A DNA stretch of 64,000 nt, taken from positions 62,001 to 126,000 of the forward strand of contig JAUJOV010000001.1 of NCBI GenBank assembly GCA_030447545.1. The letters run 5' to 3'. The translations under genes were made by a program, and so were the position numbers. The notes under the pieces were generated by a model. It ran no database searches, was not told the origin of the DNA, and saw nothing but the letters and a program-made list of their open reading frames with translations. This DNA is from Sphingomicrobium sp. (GTDB lineage: Bacteria > Pseudomonadota > Alphaproteobacteria > Sphingomonadales > Sphingomonadaceae). Shown here piece after piece: positions 3,565 through 63,689 of the stretch (the stretch's first letter is position 1; each line of letters starts with the position of its first letter).

Positions 3565-3592
3565 ATGTGCGCTTTCGACCCATTGCGGACAT
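3565..3592. repeat. dispersed hairpin repeat, copy 1
   Basis: Copy of a 28-bp imperfect palindrome of the form ATGTCCGCTTT-loop-AAAGCGGACAT. The left arm here carries a change (TGTGCGC). It sits between the hsp20 terminator and a convergent secreted-protein gene. Shadow reading frames through it give peptides such as MGRKRTF, often mis-annotated as genes. Confidence 0.8.
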
Positions 3593-3735
3593 AAGGCTCG
3601 CGTGGAACGGTCGAGGATGCAATCACCTGCTGCAACCCTCGCCGCTGCCCTTCACGGACGGTTTCCGCCAGCATTTCGAGGAAGAGCCGGCGGCGAAGCG
3701 AGTCCGTCCGGGCGGGCGGTTGCTCTGGACCTACG

Positions 3736-4005
3736 TTATCCGTCGATGGTGCCGACACCTTCCTCGGCCCAGTCCTTGTCGACATCGACGTCTTGCTCGG
3801 CCCACTCTTCTCGTGTCCAGCACTTGACCCTCTCGATGCGGGTGCCGGTGACGGCCTCGATGCGCATGCAATATCTCGTCTCGCGGGTCCCTGCCGGGGC
3901 TCCTGCGGTGAGGGTTGGTTCGGGTACCGGTTCCTGGGTCGCGGCCGACGCCGGCGAAGCGGCGGCGATCATGCACAAGCCGAAGACCATATCCTTGAGA
4001 GCCAT
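3736..4005 (-). CDS. small secreted protein, unknown function
   Basis: An 89-residue protein. The Sec signal peptide MALKDMVFGLCMIAAASPASA ends in an AXA site near residue 21. The mature part starts Pro/Thr/Ala-rich, then has a conserved-looking core TRYCMRIEAVTGTRIERVKCW with two cysteines, and ends in an acidic stretch (EEWAEQDVDVDKDWAEEGVG). I have seen such short CMRIE...TGTRI proteins in sphingomonads but know no function. Start 4005 begins the signal peptide; an upstream in-frame Met would add seven charged residues. It lies in the repeat-bearing accessory patch. Confidence 0.6.
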   Translation of the reverse strand: MALKDMVFGLCMIAAASPASAATQEPVPEPTLTAGAPAGTRETRYCMRIEAVTGTRIERVKCWTREEWAEQDVDVDKDWAEEGVGTIDG

Positions 4006-4169
4006 GTCGTTTCTCCGTGATGGCATGCTGGCGTTTCGCTTTTAGCATGAGTTGCTAAGCGCAGTTGAGCGATTGCGTAAGCAATCGGGAGGCAGCGCGT
4101 AGAGCCAATGAGTGCCGGCTGGCGCGCGAGCGAGCGGCCTATGCGCGAGGCGTTCCATCGTTTTAGCTA

Positions 4170-4197
4170 ATGTCCACTTTCGACTCATTCCGGACAT
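4170..4197. repeat. dispersed hairpin repeat, copy 2
   Basis: Degenerate copy (ATGTCCACTTTCGACTC with CATTCCGGACAT) immediately after the 3' end of the NTF2-like gene remnant, whose stop is at 4202. Outer stem ATGTCC/GGACAT intact. Confidence 0.75.
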
Positions 4198-4201
4198 CAA
4201 G

Positions 4202-4492
4202 CTAAACGCCCTCGTCAACGAGAGTGCCCTGATGATAGATCGCACGCCAGCCGCGACCATATCGCCACACCGTTGATCGGCGGCTTAGTCGAGCGCCCTG
4301 TCTCAGCAGGTAAGTAGCGAGGAACGCTCCTCCTCCGAGCGCACGACAGGAGAAATCGCTTACCTCCCACGGATCCTCATGAGGCGACGAGTGACGCTTC
4401 TCAAGTTCATCGAGCACAAAGTCTCGATCATAGACCCGTCCGGAAGCACCGACCTACCAAAACGCTTCGTCGATCATGTGTTCAAAGTGAGC
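4202..4492 (-). pseudogene. NTF2-like / DUF4440 protein, interrupted by a TAG codon
   Basis: The C-terminal 71 residues read DELEKRHSSPHEDPWEVSDFSC, then STVWRYGRGWRAIYHQGT, a typical SnoaL/DUF4440 small alpha+beta barrel. The same frame continues upstream as SRAHFEHMIDEAFW, then a TAG (4454-4456), then VGASGRVYDRDFV. In relatives the position after FW is usually Glu, so a single base change (GAG to TAG) or a read error splits the gene. The true start is not clear. These proteins are usually orphan enzymes or sensors; no function is assigned. It lies between two copies of the hairpin repeat. Confidence 0.55.
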
Positions 4493-4604
4493 CCTCGAAG
4501 TCCCGAGTTCCGGCCTGTGGAAGATCGGCTCGCGTGCTCGAGAGTGCCTCGCGCTTCGGTTTCGGTCATCAGAAGCTGATCGACCAACTCGCTACTTACC
4601 GTCA

Positions 4605-4632
4605 ACGTCCGCTTTCCACCCAAAGCAGACAT
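4605..4632. repeat. dispersed hairpin repeat, copy 3
   Basis: Loop CCACCC between arms ACGTCCGCTTT and AAAGCAGACAT; two mismatches in the stem. It lies in the 250-bp gap between the NTF2-like remnant and gcrA. I see no gene in that gap. Confidence 0.75.
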
Positions 4633-4739
4633 TAGAGATGCCGTCATGCGAGCAATCGCGTGACGTCGGACGTGCTCGGCTGAAGCCGACCGGCCGGCTG
4701 CTGTCTCTCGCGTGAGGACGCTCGCTTTCTCCGCTTACG

Positions 4740-5405
4740 TTACGCGGCTTCAGCGAACTCGCGGGCCGCCGAACGGCAGGGGCGGGGGTGGGCGGCGGTC
4801 GGCGCGGGAGCCTGGGCCTGGTAGGCGACTCCGCAATGCTGGACGCAATAGGGGAAGCCTGGTTCGCCTGCTGGCCGCAGAGTGGAAGTCGGGCTCGCCC
4901 GGGTGGCCCATCGGCCACTTGCAGATGCGGTCGTTGAGGTCGAGCAGGCTGGTCTTGTCGGCGACTTCGGGGCTCGGCTTGGCGGGCACCAGACGGCGCG
5001 GCGGAGCGGGCGGGATCGGCGCCTGCTGCTCGCCCGGACCCTGGCGACGACCGCCGGGGCCGATCGAGCGGTACTGAACCGAGTCGGCCTGCGGGCGCCT
5101 GGGCCGCCGGAGCCGGCGTCTGCTGCGGCGCCGCGGGAGGCTCGGCCGCGGGTGTGCCGGGCTCTGGGGCCCGACGCTCGGCCGGCGCGGGTCTGGGCGC
5201 CGGGGCGGCAGCGGCCGGAGCAGGCTTCTCCTTCTCCTCGCCGGGCTTGACCGGTGAGGGCCGCGCTTCGAGGCCGAGGCGGTGCGCCTTGCCGATCACC
5301 GCGTTGCGGCTCACTCCGCTGAGCCTCGTCGGCGATCTGGCTGGCGGTCGCGCCGTCGTGCCACATCTTCTTCAGGCGCTCGATCCGCTCTTCGGTCCAG
5401 GACAT
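4740..5405 (-). CDS. gcrA: GcrA cell-cycle regulator (several frameshifts)
   Basis: GcrA binds sigma-70 RNA polymerase at methylated GANTC sites and drives S-phase genes in alphaproteobacteria. The N-terminus MSWTEERIERLKKMWHDG is the GcrA helix-turn-helix start. A frameshift near 5320 moves the helix to GVSRNAVIGKAHRLGLEARP-type sequence in the next frame. A long Pro/Ala-rich linker follows. The conserved C-terminal domain appears in pieces: LLDLNDRICKWPMGHPGEPDF, then PYCVQHCGVAYQ in a third frame, ending at 4740 with AREFAEAA. At least three indels are needed. All conserved blocks remain, so the gene is probably intact in the organism. Confidence 0.85.
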   Translation of the reverse strand: MSWTEERIERLKKMWHDGATASQIADEAQRSEPQRGDRQGAPPRPRSAALTGQARRGEGEACSGRCRPGAQTRAGRASGPRARHTRGRASRGAAADAGSGGPGARRPTRFSTARSAPAVVARVRASSRRRSRPLRRAVWCPPSRAPKSPTRPACSTSTTASASGRWATRASPTSTLRPAGEPGFPYCVQHCGVAYQAQAPAPTAAHPRPCRSAAREFAEAA

Positions 5406-5472
5406 TCAACTGCTCTCCGATTCATCTGCCGGCGCTTGCCGAGCATGAACCCACCCGATAGGCGCAGCCACC

Positions 5473-6300
5473 GTGAAAGGCGCCCAACCTCCGATCTGGG
5501 TTCGAACCCCGCCTGGCGAGCCGGTTCTGTCCGGCGTCAACTGGGGCGGGCTCAAGACGCTGTATATCAAGGAGGTGCGCCGGTTCTTCAAGGTGCAGAT
5601 GCAGACCGTCTGGGCGCCGGCGGTCACCACCCTGCTCTACCTGGCGATCTTCACCGTCGCTCTGGGCAGCGACCGCAGGGTGATGGGCGTGCGCTTCGCC
5701 GACTTCATCGCGCCCGGCCTGGTCGCCATGGCGATGATCCAGAACGCCTTTGCCAATTCGAGCTTCTCGCTGCTGATCGGCAAGATGCAGGGCAATATCG
5801 TCGACTATCTGATGCCGCCTTTGTCCACCGGCGAGCTGATCGCGGGGCTGGTCGGTGCAGCGGTCACGCGCGCCTTCCTGGTCGGAGTGGCGGTGTGGCT
5901 CGCGATGCTGTTCTGGCCCGGCGTGTCGGTCGAGGTCGACCATCCGCTCTGGGCCTTCTGGTTCGGCCTGATGGGCGCCTTGATGCTGGCGTTCCTCGGG
6001 CTGATCACCTCGCTGTGGGCCGACAAGTTCGACCATGCGGCGGCGGTGAGCAATTTCCTGGTCACGCCGCTGTCGCTGCTGTCGGGCACCTTCTATTCGA
6101 TCGAGCAGCTCGCGCCCGCGTTCCAGGCGCTGAGCCATGCAAACCCGTTCTTCTACGTGATCTCGGGCTTCCGCTACGGCTTCCTCGGGACTGCCGATTC
6201 GCCGGTTCTGGTCGGGGCCGTCGGGCTTTTCTTGCTAAACATCGTGCTGTGGGCCGTGTGCTACGCGCTCGTCCGGAGCGGGTGGAAAATCAAGGCATAG
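5473..6300 (+). CDS. ABC-2 type transporter permease (YadH/NodJ-like)
   Basis: Integral membrane permease of an ABC exporter, 275 residues with about six transmembrane segments from residue 50 onward. LYIKEVRRFFKVQMQTVWAP is the usual start of the ABC2_membrane domain, and the PLSLLSGTFYSIEQL and NPFFYVISGFRYGF blocks are typical of YadH/DrrB-like permeases. The matching ATPase (YadG type) is not adjacent in the window. Start is a GTG 67 bp after the divergent gcrA start; an internal start nearer LKTLYIKEV is possible. Substrate unknown. Confidence 0.85.
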   Translation: MKGAQPPIWVRTPPGEPVLSGVNWGGLKTLYIKEVRRFFKVQMQTVWAPAVTTLLYLAIFTVALGSDRRVMGVRFADFIAPGLVAMAMIQNAFANSSFSLLIGKMQGNIVDYLMPPLSTGELIAGLVGAAVTRAFLVGVAVWLAMLFWPGVSVEVDHPLWAFWFGLMGALMLAFLGLITSLWADKFDHAAAVSNFLVTPLSLLSGTFYSIEQLAPAFQALSHANPFFYVISGFRYGFLGTADSPVLVGAVGLFLLNIVLWAVCYALVRSGWKIKA

Positions 6301-6417
6301 CTTTCTCAAATTCTTAGTCGTTTCTGATGCTGAACGAACGATAACGGAGGCGTTCAGCGTGCTGCGAGCCGCGAAGGCGCACAACATCCGCATCAACCGC
6401 TCGATTCGAAGGAGAGC

Positions 6418-6996
6418 ATGATGCGTAAAGTTCTGATCACTCTTGCCGCCGCCGCGTCGGCTCTCGCCGTTGCCGCGCCGGCTTCCGCGCAGTGGTACCC
6501 GCAGCCCCAGCCGCAGGTCGGCGTCGGCGTTCAGTACAGCGTCGGCGTGCAGTACGGCTCGCCGTACGGCTCGCCGTATGGCTACCAGACGCCGCAGTAC
6601 GGCTACGGCTACGGCTCGCCCTATGGCTATCGCGCACCCCAGTACGGCTACAGCTACGGCTCGCCCTACGGCTATCGCGCACCGCAGTACGGCTACGGCT
6701 ACGGCTCGCCCTACGGCTACAGCAATTACGGCCAGGCGCAGGCGATGAAGGTGCGGATCGACCGGATCCAGGCGGAAATTCGCCGCCTCGCCCAGTACCG
6801 GATGATCAGCCACAACGAGTATCACAACCTGCTTGCCGATTCGCGCGAGATCGAGCGGCGCTTCTACCGCAATGCGCGCGACGGCCGGGGTCTCAGCCAT
6901 TCGGAGATGCACGACGTGCAGCACCGGGTTGCCCGCCTCGAGCAGAGGATCGCTCAGGACGTCCGCGACGGCCGCCAGTGGGGCTATCGCTGGTAA
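6418..6996 (+). CDS. secreted Tyr/Gly-repeat protein with helical C-terminus
   Basis: A 192-residue secreted protein. The Sec signal peptide (residues 1-24) ends APASAQW. Residues 40-105 are tandem [15 protein letters not shown]-type units of about 15 residues (45 bp), three nearly perfect at the DNA level. The C-terminal half (110-190) is charged and helical, with two similar segments around [15 protein letters not shown] and [18 protein letters not shown]. Start 6418 follows GGAGAG. It is similar in style to the lipoprotein at 17844. No enzymatic motif; a cell-envelope or surface role is a guess. Confidence 0.75.
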
Positions 6997-7030
6997 CGGC
7001 ACGGCTGCCTTCATAGGGTATGCTTAAGAG

Positions 7031-7062
7031 AGGCGCGCCGGGGGCACCGGGCGCGCCTTTTC
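7031..7062 (+). terminator. rho-independent terminator
   Basis: Perfect 9-bp stem AGGCGCGCC (7031-7039) / GGCGCGCCT (7050-7058) followed by TTTTCCTTT. It ends the repeat-protein gene (stop at 6996) ahead of argD. Confidence 0.85.
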
Positions 7063-7140
7063 CTTTGTCGGGCCGCTGGCTATAGCGGCCGCGTCGGCCC
7101 CCGGCCGCTCTCTCAAGACCCGCAGGAGGACGTCACCGAC

Positions 7141-8331
7141 ATGGCCATCACCCCGCTCATGCCCGTCTATGCGCGCTGCGAGGTCCGGCCGGTGAGGGGC
7201 GAGGGGGTGTATCTCTACGGCGAAGGTGGCGAGCGATATCTCGACTTCGCCAGCGGCATTGCGGTCAACCTGCTTGGCCACCGTCACCCGCACCTGGTCG
7301 AGGCGATCCAGAAGCAGGCCGCGACGCTGATGCACGTGTCGAACCTCTACGGGAGCCCGCAGGGCGAGGGGTTCGCAAGGCGATTGTGCGACCTGACCTT
7401 TGCCGACACCGTGTTCTTCACCAATTCGGGCGCGGAAGCCGTCGAGTGCGCGATCAAGACCGCGCGGCGCTATCACCATGCCAAAGGCAATGCGCACAAG
7501 CACGATCTCATCACCTTTTCCAACGCCTTTCACGGGCGGACGATGGCGACGATCAGCGCGACCAACCAGGAGAAGCTGCGCGACGGTTTCGCGCCTCTGC
7601 TCCCGGGCTTCAAGGTGGTCGAGTTCGACGACCTCGAGGCAGCGCTCGCGGCGGTGGACGACAATACGGCGGGCTTCCTGATCGAGCCGGTGCAGGGCGA
7701 GGGCGGGATTCGCCCGGCCAGCAACGCGTTCATCGCCGGCCTTCGCGCGGCCTGCGACGAGAAGGACCTGATGCTTCTGTTCGACGAGGTGCAGTGCGGA
7801 ATGGGCCGAACGGGCACTTTGTTCGCCTATGAGCAATATGGAGTCGCGCCGGACATCATGGCGGTGGCCAAGGGCATCGGCGGCGGCTTCCCGCTCGGCG
7901 CGTGCCTTGCGACCGAAAAGGCAGCGAGCGGGATGGTGATCGGCACCCACGGGTCGACTTACGGCGGAAACCCGCTGGCCATGGCCGCGGGCGAGGCGGT
8001 GCTCGACGTGGTCGCCAACGACGAATTCCTCGCCAACGTTCGGCGGATCGGCGAGCGGCTGCGCTCGGCGCTCCAGCAGATGATCCCCAACCACGACCAT
8101 CTGTTCGAAAGCGTCCGCGGCACCGGGCTGATGCTGGGCGTCAAGATGAAGACCGACAGCCGCGCGTTCGTGAACTATCTGCGCGGGCACGGGCTGCTGA
8201 CCGTCGCGGCGGGCGACAATGTGATGCGCGTGCTTCCGCCGCTGGTGATCGACGAGGCCCATGTTCGCGAATTCGCCGACGCTCTGTCGAAGGCCGCCGC
8301 CGAGTACGAGGTGCCCGCGGCTGCGGCCTGA
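7141..8331 (+). CDS. argD: acetylornithine aminotransferase
   Basis: PLP enzyme of arginine biosynthesis (N-acetylornithine to N-acetylglutamate semialdehyde); many also act in lysine biosynthesis. Full length at 396 residues. Class III aminotransferase landmarks: NSGAEA (95-100), LLFDEVQCGMGR (212-223, Asp215 binding PLP nitrogen) and the Schiff-base lysine in AVAKGIGGGFPLG (K244). A purine-rich GCAGGAGG precedes ATG 7141. hslO starts 39 bp after its stop, so they are probably co-transcribed. In many relatives argF lies between these two genes; it is absent here. Confidence 0.95.
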   Translation: MAITPLMPVYARCEVRPVRGEGVYLYGEGGERYLDFASGIAVNLLGHRHPHLVEAIQKQAATLMHVSNLYGSPQGEGFARRLCDLTFADTVFFTNSGAEAVECAIKTARRYHHAKGNAHKHDLITFSNAFHGRTMATISATNQEKLRDGFAPLLPGFKVVEFDDLEAALAAVDDNTAGFLIEPVQGEGGIRPASNAFIAGLRAACDEKDLMLLFDEVQCGMGRTGTLFAYEQYGVAPDIMAVAKGIGGGFPLGACLATEKAASGMVIGTHGSTYGGNPLAMAAGEAVLDVVANDEFLANVRRIGERLRSALQQMIPNHDHLFESVRGTGLMLGVKMKTDSRAFVNYLRGHGLLTVAAGDNVMRVLPPLVIDEAHVREFADALSKAAAEYEVPAAAA

Positions 8332-8370
8332 GCGGTTGAGCGGCGGCTGGGTGGACCCTATCTAGCCGCC

Positions 8371-9273
8371 ATGCCTGCAACGGAGCTGAGCCTCGACGTC
8401 GCAATCGGCGTCACCATTCCCGCGCGCGATGCGCGCGGCCGGGCAGCGCGCATCGGGCCGGTGCTCGATTCGATCCTGTCGGCGCACACCTATCCGCCGG
8501 TGCTCGAGCGGCTGCTTGCCGAGGCGCTGACGCTAACCGCGCTGCTCGGCTCGCTGCTCAAGGAACCGCAAGGGCAGATGACGCTCCAGGCGCAGACGGA
8601 GGACGGGATCGTCGATCTGCTCGTGTGCGACTATCTCGGCGGCGAGCTTCGCGGCTATGTCCGCCACGACCCGGCGCGCCTGGCCGACGCCGGGCCGAAG
8701 CCGACGCTCTCCGCCTTGTTCGGCAAGGGCTATCTGGCGATCACTTTCGACCAGCCGCTGAGCAAGGAGCGCTATCAGGGGATCGTGCCGCTCGAGGGCG
8801 AGAGCCTCGCTCAGGCCGCGCAGAGCTATTTCGCTCAGTCGGAGCAGATCCCGAGCCTGGTCCGCCTCGCCGCCGAGAAGCGCGACGGGCGCTGGACCGC
8901 GGGCGGGATGCTGTTCCAGCACCTGCCCGAGGGCGAGGAGGGCCGCGAGCGAATCCACACGCAGCTCGACCATCCCGACTGGCCGCACATCGCCATCCTC
9001 GGCGGATCGGTGAAGCCCGGGGAGCTGACCGACCCCGGCCTGCCGCTCGACGATTTGATCTGGCGGCTGTTCCACGAGGAGGCGGAAGTGCGCACGTTCG
9101 CGCCGGTGCAGCTCTCGCGCGGCTGCCGCTGCGACCCCGAATATGTGCGCTCGGTGATCGCCCGCTTCCCCGAGGAGGAGCGCCAGGCGATGGTCGGGCC
9201 GGACGGGCTGATCACCGTCGACTGTGCCTTCTGCTCGCAGACCTTCCCGATCACGCTTGCCGACGTCTCCTAG
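8371..9273 (+). CDS. hslO: Hsp33 redox-regulated chaperone
   Basis: Cytosolic holdase switched on by oxidation. It has 300 residues, the usual size. The C-terminal zinc redox switch is visible: Cys252 and Cys254 (CRC) and Cys285 and Cys288 (CAFC), the expected CxC...CxxC pattern. The N-terminal dimeric domain starts around residue 8. It lies directly downstream of argD in the same orientation. Confidence 0.93.
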   Translation: MPATELSLDVAIGVTIPARDARGRAARIGPVLDSILSAHTYPPVLERLLAEALTLTALLGSLLKEPQGQMTLQAQTEDGIVDLLVCDYLGGELRGYVRHDPARLADAGPKPTLSALFGKGYLAITFDQPLSKERYQGIVPLEGESLAQAAQSYFAQSEQIPSLVRLAAEKRDGRWTAGGMLFQHLPEGEEGRERIHTQLDHPDWPHIAILGGSVKPGELTDPGLPLDDLIWRLFHEEAEVRTFAPVQLSRGCRCDPEYVRSVIARFPEEERQAMVGPDGLITVDCAFCSQTFPITLADVS

Positions 9274-9314
9274 GCCCCCTCCCGGAAATTCGCCGTTCGT
9301 GCTATGCTGGAGGG

Positions 9315-9686
9315 ATGAGCGGCTTGGGGCGAGCTGTGGCATTGGCCGGCGGGGCAGGGGCGCTTGCGCTCGTTCTGGGCGCTGCGAAGGGCCCGGCGAT
9401 CCTTGCGCAGCCCATTGGCGGACTGTGGGAGATCAGGGGCGATCCCGCCTCGCCCGGGCCGCAGCGGCTGTGCCTTGCGGATCCCGCGCTGCTTGCCCAG
9501 TTCGAGCACCGCAGGGCGACCTGCACCCGCGTCGTGGTCGGCGAACAGGCCTTGTCCGCCGACATGCATTACACCTGTGCGGGCGGCGGGTTCGGCCAGT
9601 CGACCATGACTGTGCTGACGCCGCGCTCGCTGAGGATCCACACGCAGGGCATCTCGCGCGGCGCGCCCTTCAACTATGTGCTGTAG
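9315..9686 (+). CDS. small secreted protein, DUF3617-like
   Basis: A 123-residue protein with a hydrophobic N-terminal signal (AVALAGGAGALALVLGAA). Mature part begins GGLWEIRGDP, with two cysteines (LCLAD, TCTRV) and a third in HYTCAGGGFG. The layout (a W-E opening, Cys-containing middle, and a GFGxS..T..TP.S end) resembles DUF3617 periplasmic proteins common in sphingomonads. Start 9315 is set by GGAGGG just upstream. Function unknown. Confidence 0.6.
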   Translation: MSGLGRAVALAGGAGALALVLGAAKGPAILAQPIGGLWEIRGDPASPGPQRLCLADPALLAQFEHRRATCTRVVVGEQALSADMHYTCAGGGFGQSTMTVLTPRSLRIHTQGISRGAPFNYVL

Positions 9687-9815
9687 GCGCGAAGACTCAG
9701 CGACTGCTGAAGACGGGCCGCCTCATTAAGCCGGGGTTTAAGCTGGAGCAGCTATGAGGGAGTCGTGCCGGATTTTGGCACGCTTTCCTCCCAATCCGGG
9801 CTTTCGCCCGAACCT

Positions 9816-9850
9816 GGGCCGCCCTTCTTCGGATGGGCGGCCCTTCTTTC
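9816..9850 (+). terminator. terminator-like hairpin upstream of queC
   Basis: Perfect 9-bp stem GGGCCGCCC (9816-9824) / GGGCGGCCC (9835-9843) followed by TTCTTTC. It lies between the DUF3617-like gene (stop 9684-9686) and queC. It could end the upstream transcript or act as an attenuator for queC. Confidence 0.55.
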
Positions 9851-9878
9851 ATCCTCCCCACTAAATCGTGGGGAGGAT
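9851..9878 (+). promoter_or_regulatory. 11-bp perfect hairpin overlapping the queC ribosome site
   Basis: ATCCTCCCCAC (9851-9861) pairs perfectly with GTGGGGAGGAT (9868-9878) around a 6-nt loop. The right arm holds the only purine-rich ribosome-binding sequence before the queC ATG at 9891. Either this is a structured leader limiting queC translation, or a dispersed palindromic repeat that happens to end here. Confidence 0.45.
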
Positions 9879-9890
9879 AATAGGCAGCCG

Positions 9891-10589
9891 ATGAATAGCT
9901 CAGCAAAAGCCGTCGTGCTCCTCTCCGGAGGGCTCGACTCGATGGTCTGCGCGGGCCTTGCGCGCGAGCAGGGGTTCCGCGTGCTCGCGCTCACGATAGA
10001 CTACAACCAGCGCCACCGGATCGAGCTTCAGGCAGCGACGACCATTGTGGCTGCGCTTGGCGCCGAGCGGCATATCATTCTGCCGCTCGACCTGAGCCGC
10101 TTCGGCGGGTCGGCCCTCACCGACGACATTGCGGTGCCCAAGGGCGGGCTCGGAAATGAAATTCCCGTCACTTACGTGCCTGCGCGCAACACGGTCTTCC
10201 TGTCGCTGTGCCTCGGCTGGGCGGAGGCGGCGGGAGCCCGCGACCTGTTCATCGGGGTCAATGCGCTCGATTATTCGGGCTATCCGGACTGCCGGCCCGA
10301 GTGGGTGCAAGGCTTCGAGCGGCTCGCGAACCTCGCGACGAAGGCGGGCGTGGAGGGTGAGGCGTTCGCGGTGCATCCGCCGCTGATTTCCATGACCACG
10401 GCCGAGATTGTGCGCGAGGCGGCGCGGCTGGGGCTCGACGCTGGGATGAGCTGGTCGTGCTACGACCCGACGAGCGACCTCAGGCACTGCGGGCTGTGCG
10501 ATTCGTGCCGGCTTCGCGCCAGGGGGTTCGCGCAAGCGGGGCTGCCTGACCCCACCGTCTATGCGGCGCACGAAGGCGCGGGCGCATGA
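9891..10589 (+). CDS. queC: 7-cyano-7-deazaguanine (preQ0) synthase
   Basis: ATP-dependent enzyme converting 7-carboxy-7-deazaguanine to preQ0 in queuosine biosynthesis. 232 residues. PP-loop SGGLDS near residue 14, and the C-terminal zinc-binding cysteine cluster CYDP...HCGLCDSCRLR. The start MNSSAKAVVLLSGG is chosen over longer in-frame starts because family members begin just before the PP-loop. Its stop overlaps the queE start (ATGA), so the two are translationally coupled. Confidence 0.94.
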   Translation: MNSSAKAVVLLSGGLDSMVCAGLAREQGFRVLALTIDYNQRHRIELQAATTIVAALGAERHIILPLDLSRFGGSALTDDIAVPKGGLGNEIPVTYVPARNTVFLSLCLGWAEAAGARDLFIGVNALDYSGYPDCRPEWVQGFERLANLATKAGVEGEAFAVHPPLISMTTAEIVREAARLGLDAGMSWSCYDPTSDLRHCGLCDSCRLRARGFAQAGLPDPTVYAAHEGAGA

Positions 10590-11218
10590 CCTACGCGGTC
10601 AAGGAGTGCTTCCTGACGCTGCAGGGCGAGGGCGTGCAGAGCGGCAGCCGTGCGGTGTTCCTGCGCTTTGCCGGCTGCAACCTGTGGTCGGGGCGCGAGG
10701 CTGATCGGGCGGGCGCGCAGTGCAGCTTCTGCGACACGGATTTCGTCGGGACCGACGGGCCGGGCGGGGGCAGGTTCGCCGATGCGGATGGCCTTGCCGA
10801 TAGAGTGGTCGAGCTGTGGGGCCCCGCAGAGGGCCAGCGGCTGGTGGTCGTCACGGGGGGCGAGCCGATGCTTCAGCTCGATTCCGCGCTGATCGACGCG
10901 CTTCACGCGCGGGGTTTCCGGGTCGCGGTCGAAAGCAACGGCACGCTTGAAGCGGTCGAGGGAATCGACTGGCTGTGCGTGAGCCCGAAGGCGGGGACCA
11001 GGGTCATCCAGCGCTCGGGCGACGAGATCAAGCTCGTCTGGCCGCAGCAGGGAATCGACCCCGCGGAGCTCGAAAGCTGGGACTTCCGGAATTTCCTGGT
11101 GCAGCCGATGGACTGCGACGAGCGCGAGCAGGCGCTGGAGGCGGCGATCCGCCTTGTCATGGAGCGGCCCAGGTGGCGGCTGTCGCTTCAGTCGCACAAG
11201 CTGATCGGGCTTCCGTAG
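10586..11218 (+). CDS. queE: 7-carboxy-7-deazaguanine synthase (radical SAM)
   Basis: Radical-SAM enzyme acting just before QueC; it contracts carboxytetrahydropterin to 7-carboxy-7-deazaguanine. 210 residues. The Fe-S cluster cysteines are C31, C46 and C49 in the unusual CX14CX2C spacing known for one QueE class, followed by DTDFVGTDG. TGGEPMLQ is the SAM-binding GGE motif. It overlaps queC by 4 bp. Confidence 0.94.
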   Translation: MTYAVKECFLTLQGEGVQSGSRAVFLRFAGCNLWSGREADRAGAQCSFCDTDFVGTDGPGGGRFADADGLADRVVELWGPAEGQRLVVVTGGEPMLQLDSALIDALHARGFRVAVESNGTLEAVEGIDWLCVSPKAGTRVIQRSGDEIKLVWPQQGIDPAELESWDFRNFLVQPMDCDEREQALEAAIRLVMERPRWRLSLQSHKLIGLP

Positions 11219-11231
11219 GACGCGTTCGCGC

Positions 11232-44475: not shown

Positions 44476-44611
44476 GGGGCTTGCAACGCACTCGGATGCG
44501 CAGATTTCCCGTTTGACTTGAACCCGGTCGAAGGCCAAGGCACGCGGCGTCGCCGGGAGCCCCGGGACCCCGTCGAAGCAGGACTTCGATTGGAGCCCTG
44601 GGCACTCGGGA

Positions 44612-44823
44612 TGGCCGCGCGGGAGAGTTCGCGCCGAGCGCCTTGCTCGGAGCGGCGCCGAAGGAGCAACCGCCCCCGGAATCTCTCAGGCCAAAGGACC
44701 GCGCGCGCCTGACAGTCTGGAAAGTGTCCGCCCAAGCGCCAAGCGAGGGTGGGCCGCCGAAGGTGTAACCCGCCTGCGCCAGGGCTGCGGCGGGGAAAGC
44801 TCTCAGGCGCAGCGACAGAAGGG
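44612..44823 (+). ncRNA. glycine riboswitch (tandem gcvT element)
   Basis: First aptamer: GCGCGGGAGAG (44617-44626 region), GCCGAAGGAGCAA, then AATCTCTCAGGCCAAAGGACC. Second aptamer: CTGGAAAG, GCCGAAGGTGTAACCC, then AGCTCTCAGGCGCAGCGACAGA. These conserved blocks are those of tandem glycine-binding aptamers, and the element sits directly upstream of gcvT, its usual target. A 9-bp stem (44825-44833 with 44855-44863) between aptamer 2 and the gcvT start could form the expression platform. No clear U-tract is seen, so translational control is the more likely mode. Confidence 0.93.
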
Positions 44824-55485: not shown

Positions 55486-55496
55486 TCGAGTGGGCT

Positions 55497-56285: not shown

Positions 56286-57482
56286 ATGCGGTTTAGTAGA
56301 TCGACGCTTGCGAAACTGTGCGCGTGCCTGCTCACCTTTGGGGCAATCCAGCGCCGGCAGTGCCGATGACGTCGTCCTGTCGGCGCGTGTACGATCCAAT
56401 GTCGTCGTGCGGGCTGAGCCGCTCGGTGCACCCTCCGCGCCGATCGGCGTTCTCAGACCCGGTGAGGAGGCAGAACTCCTCGAAAGCATTCCCTACTTCT
56501 ATCGCGTCCGCCTGCCGAATGGCGTCACCGGATACGTCAGCAAGAGCTGGACGGACCTTGTCCAGTCAGTGTCGGGCCCAGGCCAACTAACCCTCCATTT
56601 CATTGACGTGGGTCAAGGCGATTCGACGCTCGCGATATGTCCGAACGGCTCCACAATCCTGATCGACGCCGGCAGCACCAGCGGCCGTTCGCCCGACGAG
56701 GTGCGGCAGTATCTAATCGGGCAGATAGATCCTTACGGGACCGAGATTGACACCTCATTGTCTCCCATCCCGACGCCGATCATTACAACCTCCTGCAGGA
56801 GGTGCTTGACGAGGTACCGGTCGGCCGAGCGTATTACGTCGGTGTCCGCGGCGACTACAGCGACGGGGAGGTTTTTGACTGGCTTCAGTCCACACCTGCC
56901 ACTGCGACCAAGCTCAGCGCAACCAACTATGACCGGATGGAAGCACCAAACAGCGCGATCGATTGCGGAGCAGCCAAAGTGTGGATTCTTTGCGGCTGGC
57001 GTTGAGCATCCGGAGAGCCGCAAGAACGCGATGAGCATCGTGGTGATGTTCCGCATGGGAGATTTTGAGGCGGTCATCACGGGCGATGCCACCTTTGCAA
57101 CCGAAAACGTGATATTGAGCCGCTACACACCGGCCTGGCTCGACATCGATGTCCTGAGGGTCGGGGCACCATGGCAGTTTCGCTACCTCAACGTCGAAGC
57201 GGTGGGCCGATGTTCTGACGCCAAGGACTGCCATCGTCAGTGCGGGTTATGACAACAGTTACGGCCATCCTCGCGGTGAAGTGATTGACCGGCTGACGCC
57301 GCACACGGTCGCAGTGGCGCCGCATGGCTTCCGGGATGCGCGGCCGAACAGCAGCGATACTGGTCGAAATACATCTTCACGAACCACACCAGCTTTACCG
57401 GGGAGCCTATGCCACAGCGACAAATCGCACCATTGTCGTGAGCACGACTGGAAGCGGATACACGATCAGCGCGGGGCAATAA
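56286..57482 (+). CDS. exported SH3-domain metallo-beta-lactamase-fold hydrolase (frameshifts)
   Basis: About 390 residues. MRFSRSTLAKLCACLLTFGA is signal-like. An SH3b domain follows (ARVRSNVVVRAEPLGAPSAP, GEEAELLESIPYFYRVRLPNG, GYVSKSW). The MBL domain resembles the C-terminal ComEC/Rec2 type: LTLHFIDVGQGDSTLAICPN, ILIDAGS, SHPDADHYNLLQEVL (HxHxDH-type metal site in another frame), VVMFRMGDFEAVITGDAT, then HHGSFATS-like sequence near 57170 and TAIVSAGYDNSYGHPRGEV. At least four indels. Likely a secreted phosphodiesterase or nuclease-like enzyme. It precedes the PhoD-like gene by 185 bp. Confidence 0.72.
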
Positions 57483-57667
57483 GCTTTTCGCGGAGATTGC
57501 CCTTCCGAGGGCGCGCGACAACGGCGCCTGATGTGAAATGCGGCTTGAGCCCCGCGCAGGATCCATGGCGGAGAAGCAGAGGTACCGCAGTTCGGCATCA
57601 GCCCAGATTCGAGTAGAGATGCTTTTTGACAGTCGAAGAGTAGCACAGACAGCGGAAGGGCGATTGA

Positions 57668-59670
57668 GTGCCTGAACATGTGACGCCACCCGCGGCCGAC
57701 GCGGAGCCAATGCTGCTCGGGCCGTTTCTTGGCCAGGTGACCACCAGCAGCATCAAGATTTGGCTGCACTTCCAACGAGAAGATGCGCCCGAGATCTATG
57801 TCACTTTGCATCCAAAGACGTTCGACTCGGAAGCCGTCGCATCCGAGACGCTGCACCTCACGCCAGAGAGCCTGTTCACCGACTGTGTGACACTTTCGGG
57901 TCTGCAGCCGGATACGCTCTACTTCTACAAGCTGTGGACGAACCCTGCTCGTTCCCTTCCGCTTCCTTTGCAGGGGCTATCGGACAGGAGCTGCATTTCG
58001 AACGCTCTCGGCCGACCCGGACGAGCAAATCGACTTCGTCGTGATGAGCTGCCACAACCCGCACGAGGCGAGGAAAGACGGGCATGAAGGCCACGCGGTC
58101 TGGGCTGATCTTCCCCAGATCATCGCGAGGGACAACAACAAGAAGGTGCGGTTCGCCCTGCTCGTCGGCGACCAAGTTTACGCGGACCGTTGGGAGAAGC
58201 AAATTCTCAGCGAACCGAGCGAAGAGAAGCGTCTACGCCACTACCTAAGCGCCTACCGGCAGTTCTGGAGCAACATCCACTATCGGCGGGTCCTCTGTTC
58301 GCTCCCGGCAGTGATGATGTGGGACGACCACGACATCACCGATGGCTGGGGATCGCGGGTGGATTCGTTTGCTGGAAGTACAAGCGACTTCAAACCCGAA
58401 TGGAAGAGCCTGTTCAGCGCCGCCTCGAGAGCGTTCTCGGTGATGCAGGCGAGCCGAAATCCCGGAACCCTTGTCAGCGAATTCCGAGGACGGTTTCGAC
58501 GTCTGCTTTACTGTCGGTCAGTGGGGCTTCGTGTTGATGGACCTGCGTTCCAATCGCAACTGGATGGAGCACAAGCTGTTCGCCGACGAGCAGCTTAATC
58601 GCATCAAGCAGTGGGTCGAAGCCAAGAAGCAGGAAATTCACACGTTGTTCGTGATCAGCCCGGTGGTCTTCTCCCATGGAAGCCCCGTAATCGATGATCT
58701 GATCGTCGCACGGTGGACCTGGGTGCTTTGGCTTTTCGATCGCATCGCCAAGCTCGGCAAGTGGGGCAAGGGCATCTACACCAAGTTTACCGATCAGCTC
58801 GGTGACATACGAGACGACATCCGGGACTCGTGGGGATGCAAGGAGAACGGGCCCCAGACCGACCTATTGCTCGACTTCCTGTTCGGATTGCAGAACGACG
58901 CCACTCACCCGGTGGGCGTCGTGATCCTGAGCGGCGACATTCACACGTCAGGATACGCGAACATCTATTCCAGCGAAGAGGAGCATGAAGAACGCTCCTC
59001 CATTCCTCACATCACCTCGAGCTCCGTAGGCTATCCTCCTTTCAATTGGATTCTCGAGGCCATCTACCGATACGCGACCAAGTCGGTGATGCTTGGTGCT
59101 CGTGGCGTCTACACCTCGCAGATCAGCCATCATTTTACGTCCCGAAGCGTGGCCGTGCTGTCGCTGCGACGGGCGCGCGGTGAAGGCGAGTTCCAGCTCA
59201 AGGTGAAGTACTATCTCGAAGGTTATCCAGAGCCTCACATCCTCCTGTTCGACCTGAGCCGTCGATCGCACCGCGAGAACATCACGTGGGTCGCACAAGA
59301 CAAGGTTTCTTCAAAGGAGTATGCCCCTTCCGCGCATGTGGATCTGGAGGCTGGCTTGGTCGGAGTGGACATAGAGGCCGCGCTTGCCGCGAGGGCGCAG
59401 GGCACGGGGATGAAGTTGAACTGGCGCGAATCCATCGTCGATCTGATGAAACTACTCGGTCTCGACAGCAGCTTGGGGGCACGTAAGCAGCGCGCGGAAA
59501 AATGGGGCTACGAAGGGACGCTCGGAACTCCGGAAATGAACATCTGGCTTCACCAGAAAGTGGTGGAGCGCCTTCGGCAGAACGGCGGCAACGTCCCAGC
59601 TGATCTTTATCCGCAGCCGCACGATGGAGCCCCAGAACCCGCTGCTGCAACTCGACAGCCGGAGGTGTGA
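57668..59670 (+). CDS. PhoD-like metallophosphatase with C-terminal DUF3597 domain (frameshifts)
   Basis: About 665 residues. The N-terminal Fn3-like domain (GPFLGQVTTSSIKIWLHFQ to LQPDTLYFYKLW) is typical of PhoD-like enzymes. The metallophosphatase core: FVVMSCHNPHEARKDGHE, LLVGDQVYADRW, AVMMWDDHDITDGWG, VVFSHGSPVIDD, and VGVVILSGDIHTSGYANI with metal-binding Asp/His. After residue 540 a DUF3597 module appears: MKLNWRESIVDLMKLLGLDS, RAEKWGYEGTLGTPEMNIWLHQKVVERL. Slips near 57960 and 58490. No signal peptide, so cytosolic or non-classical. The GTG start at 57668 is preceded by GGAAGGG. Confidence 0.82.
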
Positions 59671-60086
59671 CAACGGGATGTAGAGATGCAGCCCAATGCC
59701 CACAGGGGCGCTTACGATCGCGCTCGGCATATCTCCGTACCGAATGTTCGCTTTCCACCCATTCCGGACATAAGCCCAAGGTCCGCTTTCGACCCAAAGC
59801 GGACATTGGAGCTGCGGCCGCTGAGCGCCCACTTTGGCCTACTAAGGTTGATCGATAAAATCGCGGAGCGCACATGGTTTAGCTTGTGCGTATCTGCCTC
59901 CCGTTCCAATCCCGGTTCAAGCGTCATGATCTCGCATTCCCTCTCGGCCGTTCGCGAAGTCGGCCGCGCAACGATTGACCCGTCTTGTCGCAGGGCTAAG
60001 GCCCGCGAGTTCGCCGGTTGGATGCCGCGTCTCTTCGCGCTTCAGACGCCACGCTCAAAGTTGGCCGAACACAGGAGTGATGCCGC
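59671..60086. other. 416-bp intergenic stretch with two hairpin repeats
   Basis: Contains the repeat pair at 59744-59806. ORFs on both strands here are shadows of those repeats (for example MSGMGGKRTFG and VRFGSKADLG). I see no other gene; the part from 59810 to 60086 is the likely upstream region of the GH2 gene. Confidence 0.5.
59744..59806. repeat. dispersed hairpin repeat, copies 6 and 7 in tandem
   Basis: Copies at 59744-59771 and 59779-59806. The second has arms GTCCGCTTT / AAAGCGGAC in perfect 9-bp pairing around CGACCC. Seven bases separate the two copies. Confidence 0.87.
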
Positions 60087-61943
60087 GTGCCTAACGATCT
60101 GAATTCTATACTCGCCATAGGGCAGCCGACCGAGGCGGAACTGCATTACCCTCGGCCTGGGCTGCGCCGGGACCGCTGGACCGACCTTTGCGGCGCTTGG
60201 GAGTTCGGGTTCGACGATGAAAATCTCGGCGTCTGCGAACGGTGGTTCGCTTCCTCGCCCCCGGCCGGCGTATTTGATCGATTGATCATCGTACCTTTTC
60301 CACCGGAGAGCCGCGCGAGCGGGGTGCACGATACCGCTTTTCATCCAGTGGTCTGGTATCGCCGCACCTTCACCGTTGAAGACGCCGATCGGTCTGAGCG
60401 GCTGGTGCTTCATTTTGGCGCTGTCGATTATCGCGCGCAAGTGTGGGTCAACGGCAGCATGGTCGCGAGCCATGAGGGAGGACACACGCCCTTTTCGGCG
60501 GAGATTGCGTCGGTCCTCGTTGATGGTCCCGCGCAAGTCGTTGTCGTTCGGGCGGAGGACCAGCCGACCGATCTTCGCCAGCCACGTGGTAAGCAGTTCT
60601 GGCGCGAGGAACTGCGCCACATCTGGTACCATCGCACAACCGGAATCTGGCAGCCCGTGTGGCTCGAGCCAGTGCCGATCACGGCGTTTGAGGAAGTACG
60701 CTGGACGCCCAATCTCGATCATTTTGGAGTCGAAATGGTTGTCCGCCTGAACCACGACGCGCCGGAGGGCGCGCGCCTGCACGTGCGCATGATTGGGACT
60801 GGAACAGATTCTGGCCTGACGATACCTACGCCCTGGCGCGACGAACTTCGACGTCTCGTCCTGTTCAATCGCGATCGCCAGATGGGCGCCGGAAGGCTGC
60901 TTTATTGGTCTCCCACAACACCCCATCTGATCAACGTTGAGCTCACTTTATCAGCAGCCGACGGAACGGTATTGGATCGGGTCGACAGCTACTTCGGTTT
61001 GCGATCCGTCGAGGTCCGCGACCGTCGAGTCCCATTTGAACGGCGTGCCGATCTTCATGCGCCTTGTGCTAGCGCAGAATTACTGGCCGAGACGCTGCTT
61101 GCCGCTCCCTCAGTCGAGGCGCTGCGGGAAGAGGTGCTGCTTGCGAAGTCGATGGGTTTTAACGGCGTCCGCATCCACCAGAAGATCGAGGACCCGCGCT
61201 TTCTATACTGGTGCGACCGGCTTGGGATGATGGTGTGGGCGAAGCAGCCAACGCCTATGTTTGATGATCAAGCGGCCGAACGATTGACGCGTGAATGGCT
61301 CGAAGCGGTGCGCCGGGATTACAATCACCCAAGCCTGATCGCTGGGTGCCTTTGAATGAAAGCTGGGGGTTCCAAACCTTGATCGCGCGCCAGAGCAACG
61401 CAATTTCGTCAAAGCCTTGTATCACATGACGAAGGCTCTTGACCCGACCCGTCCGGTCATTGGCAAATGCGATGGCTGGCAGCATGCTATCGGCGACCTG
61501 TTTGGAGTTCACGATTATGCCTCGGACCACAATGTGTCGCGCGAACGCTACGGAAATCGCGCAGCGCTCGAATACACGTTTCGCGAGGTCAGCCCGATCA
61601 TTATCCGCTGCTTAGCGGTGGCCATTCCATCGGGGACGAAGCCGTGGTGCTCAGCGAATTCGGCAGGTTGTCCTTCAAGCCCCATACTGGCGCCCAGTGG
61701 TTCGCGTACGGCAAGTATGAGAATGCGGAAGAGAGTTGCTGCCCGCTACCGCGAATTGGTCGAAGCATTGCTCGATCCGGCGTACTTCGCGCCGGCTTTT
61801 GCTACACCCAGCTGACCGATACCGAGCAGGAAATCAACGGGCTGCTGACCGCCGAGCGCCAGCCCAAGTTGGACCCGGAGGTTCTTCGTGACATCAATAC
61901 CAGGCCGCCAGAGCGGTACCGGGCGAGATCATGGCAACGGTGA
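60087..61943 (+). CDS. glycoside hydrolase family 2 (beta-galactosidase/glucuronidase-like) (frameshifts)
   Basis: About 610 residues. The sugar-binding domain reads LCGAWEFGFDDE, VWYRRTFTVEDADR, VLHFGAVDYRAQVWVNGSMVASHEGGHTPFS, WHRTTGIWQPVW-like YHRTTGIWQPVWLE. An immunoglobulin-like domain and the TIM barrel follow: SMGFNGVRIHQKIEDPRFLYWCDRLGMMVW. The acid/base Glu is in LNESWG and the nucleophile in EAVVLSEFG. Slips near 61030, 61240, 61350 and 61600. No signal peptide is evident, so probably cytosolic. GTG 60087 follows AGGAG. Stands alone, without transporter genes. Confidence 0.83.
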
Positions 61944-62091
61944 TGAAAAACGAAATAGAGCGGCGCCGGCGCGAGTCTCAAGGCGAAACATCCGTTTGAA
62001 GCGGGGTATTTGATTTAACGTGTTCTTTGTGGAGCATTGGCGGGATAGCCGTTCCGCTGATAGCCGTTCTCCGCCTTTCGCCGGCGCCTAA

Positions 62092-62153
62092 ATGTCTGCT
62101 TTCCACCCAAAGCAGACAGAAGCCTAATGTCGCTTTCGACCCAATGCAGACAT
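62092..62153. repeat. dispersed hairpin repeat, copies 8 and 9 in tandem
   Basis: Copies at 62092-62119 and 62127-62153. The first has ten paired bases with CTGC/GCAG where copy 7 has CCGC/GCGG. The second is one base short in the left arm. Located between the GH2 gene and a small gene. Confidence 0.85.
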
Positions 62154-62177
62154 TAGGCATCCCCCTAGGATGGTAGC

Positions 62178-62463
62178 ATGACCATAGAGCAAGCTCCGCT
62201 GGCCGAGGCGCTAACTCGTCTAAACGTGCCGGAGAACGTGCAGGGGCGTTCATCCGACGAACCTGTTGAGTGGGAAACCGCCTACGCGCTGTGCCACATT
62301 CTGCGTTCGGCCCGCACGACTGAGGAGCAACTCATCCCGGCCATAATGACGGGCCACTTCTCAGCACGAAGCGACGGAGGCCTTGCATGAGGTGCGAGAG
62401 GAACTCCGGCACATCCTCTACCACATCAGGAACGCGAGCTACTTCTCCGTAGTCGCGGAGTGA
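62178..62463 (+). CDS. small protein of unknown function (one frameshift)
   Basis: About 95 residues. MTIEQAPLAEALTRLNVPENV, then WETAYALCHILRSARTTEEQLIPAIMT, and after a slip near 62365 ATEALHEVREELRHILYHIRNASYFSVVAE. Helical and mildly acidic throughout. The last 30 residues look like an immunity- or antitoxin-like helix pair, but I recognise no family. The TGA at 62461-62463 is the first base triplet of a hairpin repeat. Confidence 0.5.
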
Positions 62464-62487
62464 CTGCTTTCCACCCATTGCGGACAT
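62461..62487. repeat. dispersed hairpin repeat, copy 10
   Basis: TGACTGCTTTCCACCC with CATTGCGGACAT. Its first three bases are the stop codon of the small gene upstream. Confidence 0.8.
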
Positions 62488-62512
62488 TGCGAATACCCTA
62501 CAACCTTAGCAG

Positions 62513-63070
62513 ATGATCGTTGAGCTGAACGGCCTCCCCGGAGTGGGGAAGTTCACCATCGCCCGTGTGCTGGCGGAGTCCTTGGGCGCGCGCTTGGTGG
62601 ACAATCACACGATCTATAATCCTGCCTTCGCATCCACTTCGTTTCGATCCCCCGAGTTTTACGAGACAGTTTGTGCAGTGCGAACGATCACGTTCGGCAA
62701 CCTGGAGAAGTTACCAGCGGGCGTTCCCCTTGTCCTGACGATCGCACCAGGCATGGACCTAGCTTGGGGACGGGACTGGCAGGCTGCGATAAAACAGCTC
62801 GCCAAAAGGCGAGACGCTGCTCTGCTTGGTGTTCACCTACATTGCAGTAGACAAGAGAGGGTGCGTCGCATGAGCACGCCGTCACGGGCGCTATTGGGCA
62901 AGTTGATTGACCCCAGCATGACCGACGACGAATTGCAGCGTCCCGTTCTTCTCGACCACTGTGACCGAGTTTTAGAACTAGACGTTACTGCGCTCGATGC
63001 CTCGGGAGCGGCTGATGAGATTCTGGACTGGTTGAATTGCCAGCCGGGAATGACTGCTCCCCACCCTTAG
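62513..63070 (+). CDS. P-loop nucleoside/small-molecule kinase-like protein
   Basis: 185 residues. MIVELNGLPGVGKFTIARVLAE is a Walker A loop (GLPGVGKFT). VDNHTIYNPAF, LVLTIAPGMDLAWGRDW and CSRQERVRRMSTPSR (lid-type Arg cluster) follow, with DELQRPVLLDHCDRVLELDVT. The overall build is that of AAA_33/shikimate-kinase-like proteins of unknown substrate. The final residues and stop (TAG in CCCTTAGCGG) come from a degenerate hairpin repeat. Confidence 0.7.
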   Translation: MIVELNGLPGVGKFTIARVLAESLGARLVDNHTIYNPAFASTSFRSPEFYETVCAVRTITFGNLEKLPAGVPLVLTIAPGMDLAWGRDWQAAIKQLAKRRDAALLGVHLHCSRQERVRRMSTPSRALLGKLIDPSMTDDELQRPVLLDHCDRVLELDVTALDASGAADEILDWLNCQPGMTAPHP

Positions 63071-63077
63071 CGGGCAT
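63050..63077. repeat. dispersed hairpin repeat, copy 11 (degenerate)
   Basis: ATGACTGCTCCCCACCC with CTTAGCGGGCAT. The arm AAAGCGGAC is altered, and the TAG in the right half is the stop of the kinase-like gene. Confidence 0.6.
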
Positions 63078-63111
63078 ATGCTGATGGAACCCAACCAGAT
63101 AAACTAACCGC

Positions 63112-63663
63112 ATGGTCATCCATACAGACCGGCTTGTGCTTAGAAGGTGGCGCGAGGAAGACATCGAGCCCCTATCGGTCATCAACTCCGATCCTTTGGT
63201 CATGAAGTGGCTCGGGAGCGGTCCCCTCGGTCGTGAAGAAACGGCCCGATACATCGAGACCAATGACAGCTTTTTCGATACGCACGGTTTCGGCACTTGG
63301 GCCGTGGAACTGAGAGCCGAACGCCGCCTGATCGGATTTAGCGGAGTGCGCCCCTTTGCAAGGCTAGGGCATCCGATGAGCCCATGTGTAGAAGCGGCAT
63401 GGAGGCAAACCAGGGAAGTGTGGGGGTCCGGGTACGCCACTGAGGCCGCAAGTGCGGCTATCGCGGATGCCTTTGAAAGGTGCAATGTTTCCGAAGTCCT
63501 CGCCTGGACTCCTGTGCTCAATGTCAGGTCACAAGCAATGATGCGACGACTCCAGATGAATCGGCGCATCGAGCGCGACTTTGACGCCCCGAGTTTGCCA
63601 GCTGATCATCCGCTTAGTCCCCATGTAGTGTTTGATCTGCGGGGGCCGCCGCCGAGCAGGTGA
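63112..63663 (+). CDS. RimJ/RimL-type GNAT acetyltransferase
   Basis: 183 residues. IHTDRLVLRRWREEDIEPL is the canonical start of this GNAT branch. Acetyl-CoA motif: WGSGYATEAASAAIADAFE, preceded by GFSGVRPFARLGH. The C-terminus SQAMMRRLQMNRRIERDFD is typical, although the usual NxxSxxxxEKxGF is reduced. Probably acts on a small amine or protein N-terminus. TGA at 63661-63663 opens the next hairpin repeat. Confidence 0.85.
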   Translation: MVIHTDRLVLRRWREEDIEPLSVINSDPLVMKWLGSGPLGREETARYIETNDSFFDTHGFGTWAVELRAERRLIGFSGVRPFARLGHPMSPCVEAAWRQTREVWGSGYATEAASAAIADAFERCNVSEVLAWTPVLNVRSQAMMRRLQMNRRIERDFDAPSLPADHPLSPHVVFDLRGPPPSR

Positions 63664-63689
63664 CGCCGGTTTCCACCCAATGCCAACAT
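63661..63689. repeat. dispersed hairpin repeat, copy 12 (degenerate)
   Basis: TGACGCCGGTTTCCACCC with CAATGCCAACAT; the arms are partly decayed, but the loop and spacing are kept. It lies between two convergent GNAT genes and includes the stop codon of the first. Confidence 0.65.

Follow-up and report, generated by a model that had tools for sequence, protein, structure and literature searches.

Short directional repeats as probable recombination sites of mobile gene cassettes in Sphingomicrobium, with a small Xer-like tyrosine recombinase as the likely enzyme

The analysed window is a 64,000-nucleotide stretch of a Sphingomicrobium sp. genome (GenBank assembly GCA_030447545.1, contig JAUJOV010000001.1, positions 62,001 to 126,000 of the forward strand) that carries 12 copies of a short palindromic repeat. 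In this genome and its relatives, such repeats very probably delimit mobile gene cassettes and act as sites of site-specific recombination. The exchange is likely carried out by a tyrosine recombinase of about 200 residues (the mini-recombinase), and cassette mobility, this enzyme, and the mechanism described below are, taken together, reasonably likely. The argument is carried by what the sequences themselves show: the anatomy of the sites, the organisation of the arrays, where cassettes begin and end, where the crossover falls, the placement of the recombinase, and the high identity of one cassette pair between species.

All 12 copies listed in a preliminary description of the window were recovered at their positions on the forward strand with the profile R1 (32.8–47.6 bits, E 8e-13 to 6e-8); R1 was derived from these same copies, so the scores indicate coherence and not independent discovery. 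At its threshold, a refined profile derived from 148 copies in the same genome matched nothing when the window was mononucleotide-shuffled 10 times. The short core GTCCGCTTT, with one mismatch allowed, matched the window 24 times against 16.0 expected, which alone is barely above chance, and the exact pattern ATGTCCGCTTT-N4-8-AAAGCGGACAT, given earlier, had no occurrence in it. The region from 4.6 to 55.7 kb was without a convincing copy, as described (best other forward-strand match at 9774, 14.2 bits, E 0.08), and the three head-to-tail pairs were found again, spaced 34–36 bp from start to start. Guanine-cytosine content was 59–60% in the repeat zones and 67% across 5–55 kb. The association of the repeat with mobile DNA and accessory segments was borne out, and action in trans, also suggested, is probable. 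An Rfam scan of the window (E up to 1) placed no family at the repeat sites. The copies are listed below by window coordinates, strand, type, spacer, and score.

3563..3595, +, cassette site 1, spacer CGACCC, 46.5 bits
4168..4200, +, cassette site 2, spacer CGACTC, 38.1 bits
4603..4635, +, cassette site 3, spacer CCACCC, 43.5 bits
55737..55769, +, doublet site A, CCACCC, 44.1 bits
55773..55805, +, doublet site B, CGACCC, 44.1 bits
59742..59774, +, doublet site A, CCACCC, 47.6 bits
59777..59809, +, doublet site B, CGACCC, 43.7 bits
62090..62122, +, doublet site A, CCACCC, 43.8 bits
62125..62156, +, doublet site B, CGACCC, shorter by one base, 38.9 bits
62458..62490, +, cassette site, CCACCC, 42.6 bits
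63048..63080, +, cassette site, CCACCC, 42.0 bits
63660..63692, +, cassette site, CCACCC, divergent, 32.8 bits

Read in register, the repeat is a directional site of about 33 bp, in which two inverted 13-bp arms flank an asymmetric 7-bp spacer. The profile consensus of the 148 copies is TAATGTCCGCTTTCCACCCATTGCGGACATTAG; GCTTTC[C/G]ACCCA is its best conserved part, and the outer stem is less conserved. In tyrosine-recombinase core sites, exchange takes place in the spacer between two inverted arms, and each repeat would have the anatomy of such a site. A cassette would then begin with a right half-site (positions 21–33), contain a small accessory gene or a few of them, and end with the next left half-site (positions 1–13). 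Exchange in the spacer would thus make cassettes excisable, duplicable, reorderable, and transferable between species, presumably through circular cassette intermediates. The likely enzyme would be the Xer-like mini-recombinase, which consists of the catalytic domain only and is encoded between sites that point inward, cassette arrays approaching it on either side.

Conservation at the repeat is conservation of sequence rather than structure. The stem had been described as covarying and selected as RNA structure, a claim that was based on two copies and failed on more of them. The 12 window copies contained one both-sided change, and 68.5% of their cells were paired compared with a mean of 69.8% after shuffling; among 320 distinct copies, pairing was within 4 points of the independence expectation at each of the 12 pairs. 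Pairs 11-22 and 12-21 were mostly broken in the larger set, where the strongest coupling joined the neighbours 21 and 22 (TT or AA) and not the two sides of the stem. With no excess pairing in either set, covariation was rejected as proof of RNA structure, and selection on the stem is unsupported. A terminator or RNA-stability hairpin, proposed as well, lacks support as the main role: the repeat takes the strand of its array, and the genes that end at the site come from both strands.

Array organisation was analysed in stretches from 11 genomes. Among neighbouring copies 150–3000 bp apart, 306 of the 324 intervals lay between sites on the same strand, 13 were convergent, and five were divergent; same-strand gaps had a median of 584 bp, and 322/328 were under 5 kb. 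Copies 33–39 bp apart were taken as doublets, and in 54 of the 71 doublets spacer position 15 was C in the first copy and G in the second, that is, CCACCC followed by CGACCC. Enrichment at 3′ ends, which the preliminary description had put forward as a check, was found: within 30 bp of 370 copies from 10 relatives there were 97 stops (59 on the same strand to the left, 38 on the opposite strand to the right) and 12 starts (three left, nine right), as given by a home-made gene caller that missed genes of unusual composition. The nearby gene ends are therefore 3′ ends; most copies had no gene end within 30 bp. Long low-complexity open frames rich in D, E, and G were seen in or beside arrays of the window's own genome (locus L057:9721-11359 on contig C81, and locus L053:3-341).

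Movement of cassettes was traced by an all-against-all comparison of the array stretches, which yielded 87 alignments (≥180 bp, ≥78% identity). Of the 37 alignment ends that fell inside arrays in both partners, 26 had a site no more than 10 bp away in each partner, against 2.0 expected; some of the compared pairs share loci. Within single genomes (numbered G), a 754-bp cassette was duplicated together with its site in G022 (L076, 99.5% identity), a 368-bp cassette occurred in two arrays of the same genome (98.1%), one cassette was common to two arrays of G017 (97.2%), and another was found in three arrays of G020 (96.1–96.7%). In the window's own genome, two cassettes stood in swapped order in L053 and L054 (84.8% and 92.4%); in L054, no site was called at the far end of the second. 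Between species, G021 and G017 had one cassette in common (85.5%) with both ends at sites, and G022 and G010 shared two adjacent cassettes over 2036 bp at 97.1%, one end lying a few bases beyond the 10-bp limit. The rpoA regions of the latter pair were only 85.1% identical (1634 bp), a difference that speaks in favour of the cassettes having been transferred recently.

The position of the crossover was estimated from 11 left-boundary pairs (right flanks homologous, left flanks not) and nine right-boundary pairs (left flanks homologous), some of them from the same three loci of G020. This set supersedes a looser screen (38 left and 31 right pairs), in which the adjoining repeat of doublets mimicked flank homology. 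In the left-boundary pairs, positions 1–13 had 41 mismatches compared with 42.5 for random pairs, positions 14–20 were intermediate (7 vs 11.3), and positions 21–22 (0 vs 9.6) and 23–33 (8 vs 40.5) were shared. In the right-boundary pairs, positions 1–13 were shared (8 vs 34.8) and 14–20 mostly so (4 vs 9.2), and positions 21–22 (9 vs 7.8) and 23–25 (7 vs 8.8) were not. The exchange is therefore placed in the 7-bp spacer or at its edge, between positions 13 and 21. Spacer position 15 agreed in 9/9 right and 9/11 left pairs. This suggests, weakly because some pairs share loci, that exchange requires matching spacers. At the left ends of two pairs of recombinase modules, L078/L081 and L102/L118 (the second pair marks the same place as L243/L244), the sites differ at positions 21–22 and are the same, or nearly so, from 23 onwards; these pairs, both below the flank cut-off of the stricter set, suggest that exchange falls slightly later or that the sites changed afterwards.

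Such boundaries could in principle arise with no dedicated enzyme, through recombination, homologous or illegitimate, among the abundant short repeats, which are indeed numerous and similar, with arrays persisting where an intact recombinase is missing. This is nevertheless improbable: the exchange lies between positions 13 and 21 instead of being spread over 33 bp, a length that is short for RecA, and the convergent recombinase module would be left unexplained.

That module points to the mini-recombinase as the enzyme. A protein of about 200 residues with a PF00589 match was encoded between convergent sites at six loci (L078, L081, L087, L218, L243, and L244), and the window's own genome has a 40-residue recombinase remnant (L060, C21:10781-10903) between sites at 10660 (+) and 11283 (−). 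All seven recombinase matches in the compared stretches, the six genes and the remnant, fell within the 13 convergent intervals; some stretches had been picked for a known recombinase match, which should leave interval direction unaffected. In a close group of proteins (65–99% identity), 7/9 loci of the genus had sites on both sides, some of them weak (right site 16.9 in L102 and 26.0 in L103). The modules were homologous from site to site in L078/L081 (2356 bp, 91.3%) and in L243/L244 (1017 bp, 84.8%).

The protein has a PF00589 catalytic domain in which R54, K82, H151, R154, and Y186 were invariant among 16 aligned sequences and H177 was present in all except L103 (H to D); we take these six residues to be the catalytic positions. 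The predicted fold of a relative, L130 (194 residues, mean predicted local distance difference test score 86.4) begins at about residue 14 and matched XerA, XerH, Tre/Cre, and Tn1549 Int best, with IntI (2a3v) at rank 36, and a profile search with the recombinase returned XerD, XerA, XerH, and an archaeal Xer (4a8e). A core-binding domain usually precedes the catalytic domain in simple tyrosine recombinases (PMC8138268); it was missing in the two proteins scanned, which had 34 and 40 residues before the PF00589 match.

A true integron, with divergent attC sites served by IntI, would also have small-gene cassettes, sites near stop codons, and co-directional arrays. It is very unlikely here. The mini-recombinase matched XerC best, and TIGR02249 was not listed for it; the sites conserve sequence and not structure, and the crossover is central and not in the outer box. 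TIGR02249 was over its cut-off in 0/41 genomes, the cut-off being without a positive control: weaker matches were present in 41/41 genomes and 14/14 controls, and none of the controls exceeded it either.

The strongest alternative is that host XerC/XerD moves the cassettes at dif-like sites, as proposed for the pdif modules of Acinetobacter, with the mini-recombinase as cargo. The 13-7-13 layout and the size of the repeat resemble those of Xer sites, the fold and profile of the mini-recombinase are Xer-like, and several repeat-rich genomes are without an intact close mini-recombinase. The occurrence of the mini-recombinase in convergent intervals in seven of seven cases is, however, unlike that of ordinary cargo, the arrays are co-directional and not alternating, and five genomes of the genus have no repeat match (E ≤ 1e-3), though Xer proteins are presumably to be expected in them. 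We therefore consider this account unlikely.

Large serine recombinases were noticed beside arrays as well. One, accompanied by DUF2924 and DUF3489 genes, adjoins the array and its first site in L079 (6790-9034), and another lies within the array in L087 (16480-18231). The placement between two co-directional sites in L087 is that of ordinary cassette cargo, and such genes were noticed in 2/10 loci whose genes were viewed, which is not a systematic count; that a serine recombinase with DUF2924/DUF3489 is the mover is highly improbable.

The window's genome (2.32 Mb, 70% complete) had 126 matches at E ≤ 1e-3, a few of the listed matches being reverse-strand readings of one copy (e.g., C91:37892). 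At the same threshold, 20/25 genomes of the genus, this one included, carried 4–126 matches, and 2/16 genomes of other genera had any. At least 38/147 genomes of the order (E ≤ 1e-4) and at least 8/289 of the class (E ≤ 1e-5) had a match, both counts being lower bounds because the filters were stricter and no more than 48 and 24 candidates, respectively, were scored in each genome. A BLAST search of plasmids with the doublet gave weak partial matches (E 0.08–0.9), among them 22–31-bp matches of the type-B site between annotated genes on Pantoea, Klebsiella, and Pseudomonas plasmids (L093–L095). No tyrosine recombinase was annotated in the shown stretches of five doublet-matching plasmids, and L095 has a "recombinase family protein". 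The repeat was not described in the literature searched on sphingomonad hairpins, alphaproteobacterial repetitive extragenic palindromic (REP) elements, integrons, and recombinase or Xer cassettes, and the shadow-peptide strings mentioned earlier had no match there, in a search that mostly left subscription papers uncovered; the repeat strings returned unrelated titles among the matches listed.

The preliminary description had also considered REP-like elements moved by a REP-associated tyrosine (RAYT, Y1) transposase. The repeats are short, palindromic, and often near gene ends, as that idea would have it, yet whole gene segments move and not the repeats alone, and a Y1 transposase (PF01797, Y1_Tnp, E ≤ 1e-5) was found in 1/25 genomes of the genus, compared with repeats in 20/25. 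This explanation is extremely unlikely.

Relatives of the mini-recombinase are widespread. A scan of public genomes gave at least 582, and the best 80, which were kept, come from Alpha-, Beta-, and Gammaproteobacteria by their record titles. Two loci from Sphingomonas metagenome-assembled genomes (MAGs; L129 and L130) have sites on both sides of the recombinase. Long inverted hairpin pairs of recognisably related sequence bracket it in 5 of the 33 loci, out of the 80, that were examined for them, namely these two, Massilia aurea (L163), a Zoogloea MAG (L167), and an unclassified proteobacterial MAG (L139), with further sites nearby in L139 and L163. Arm-like sites were found near the recombinase in 29/80 loci and were 2.1 times denser there than further away, and the refined profile matched somewhere in 30/80. 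Downstream hairpins were commoner (31/75) and are plausibly terminators. Support for the wide claim therefore comes from the loci of Massilia, Zoogloea, the unclassified MAG, and the Sphingomonas MAGs. In Microvirga, a similar hairpin (GTCYGGCTT...AAGCTGAC) was observed about 180 bp upstream of the recombinase match (L147:1738, L169:9817, L188:9823) and is possibly a lineage-specific site. With the recombinase family found on 323 plasmid records (tblastn, E ≤ 1e-40), the spread of related cassettes may be wider; among 15 of these records, 12 had integrase or tyrosine-type recombinase labels and three had no annotation at the place.

Several observations weigh against mobile cassettes served by the mini-recombinase. 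Recombination itself is inferred from sequence comparison. Gene direction is mixed inside cassettes, 11/37 alignment ends lie away from sites (among them both ends of four alignments of 0.8–2 kb at 83–85%: L088/L089, L211/L217, L081/L088, and L215/L227), and positions 26–33 of the right-boundary pairs are more alike than random (16 vs 24.3 mismatches). Two of the nine close-group loci are one-sided, L100 with a left site only and L101 at a contig end, and a second, distant group (52–61% identity) had 0/12 loci between convergent sites, L120 lying between two same-strand sites. An intact close recombinase is missing from the repeat-rich window genome (126 matches, remnant only), G014 (90), G021 (48 matches, distant-group recombinase only), and G164 (at least 48), and the close recombinase was found in 6/20 repeat-bearing and 0/5 repeat-less genomes of the genus (raw counts). 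In the wider family, 51/80 loci had no arm-like site within 1.5 kb and 4/80 had sites on both sides, and upstream hairpins were hardly enriched (8/76 vs 4/109). The window genome's arrays look like relics, since only a recombinase fragment was found in the examined contigs of this incomplete assembly, and by analogy all four repeat-rich genomes may be read as holding relic arrays like the clusters of attC sites lacking integron-integrases (CALINs).

The genes between and beside the window sites are as follows.

57668..59670, +, cargo between doublets, overlapping frames (weak PhoD-like matches below cut-off; DUF3597 above cut-off)
60087..61355, +, cargo between doublets, glycoside hydrolase family 2-like (PF02837, E 6e-17)
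62513..63070, +, cassette gene, AAA_18-type nucleotide kinase-like (PF13238, E 5e-7, 30.6 bits, cut-off 29.4)
63112..63663, +, cassette gene, GNAT acetyltransferase (PF13302, E 8e-28)
63690..63977, −, GNAT gene on the opposite strand (PF00583, E 1e-11)

The stop codon of the AAA_18-type gene is within the next site (63048), that of the plus-strand GNAT gene falls on the left edge of the site that follows (63660), and that of the minus-strand GNAT gene abuts the right end of the last site. Elsewhere in the window, tandem glycine riboswitch aptamers were found at 44610-44819 (+; 60.2 and 39.3 bits, both above gathering), and 45-bp tandem repeats at 6550-6719 lie inside a Tyr/Gly-rich open frame (6418-6996).

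The textbook example of cassette shuffling is the integron. If mobile cassettes are served by the mini-recombinase, an unrecognised cassette economy, masked by intergenic repeats and generic "integrase" labels, would explain part of accessory gene turnover in Alphaproteobacteria, and the system would offer a very small recombinase with a defined site. A broader proposal, which we regard as evenly balanced, is a gene-capture platform separate from integrons and spread across Proteobacteria. In it, an Xer-like recombinase made up of the catalytic domain alone, with a site family of its own, would build two converging arrays and exchange genes in the spacer between matched spacer types A and B, giving Alphaproteobacteria the cassette economy that other Proteobacteria have from integrons. 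Integrons are described as extremely rare in this class, with six complete ones (PMC9024848).

Among known systems, the short tyrosine recombinases of the FimB/FimE type likewise have about 200 residues and only the catalytic domain; the recombinase studied here differs in lying between convergent sites within cassette arrays. REP/RAYT systems and Br-REP1/2 of Bradyrhizobium are similar in their abundant palindromic repeats near gene ends in Alphaproteobacteria, whereas whole genes are mobile here and most repeat-bearing genomes of the genus are without a Y1 transposase; the consensus of Br-REP1/2 differs from the sphingomonad repeat (PMC5082802). The pdif/dif modules of Acinetobacter also have two-arm sites of about 28 bp with a short spacer that bound genes and recombine in the Xer manner. 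Their bounding sites are inversely oriented, in contrast to the 306/324 co-directional intervals found here, where the arrays are long and some have a dedicated mini-recombinase. With integrons, the arrays have in common that their small genes are delimited by a directional site, able to form a hairpin and close to the stop codon, as in cassettes made up of a gene and a recombination site near its 3′ end, and that a tyrosine recombinase lies beside some arrays, others being without an integrase (compare CALINs, PMC9024848). The differences are an enzyme of about 200 residues that is Xer-like and not IntI, and short sites whose arms and spacer are conserved in sequence with no covariation in 320 copies, whereas attC sites keep their folding above their sequence. 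The crossover lies in the central spacer (positions 13–21) and not in an outer R box as in integrons, and the arrays converge on the recombinase from both sides and hold genes of both directions. The best reading is a cassette platform that resembles integrons and has a recombinase and a site of its own; these two components set it apart from integrons proper.

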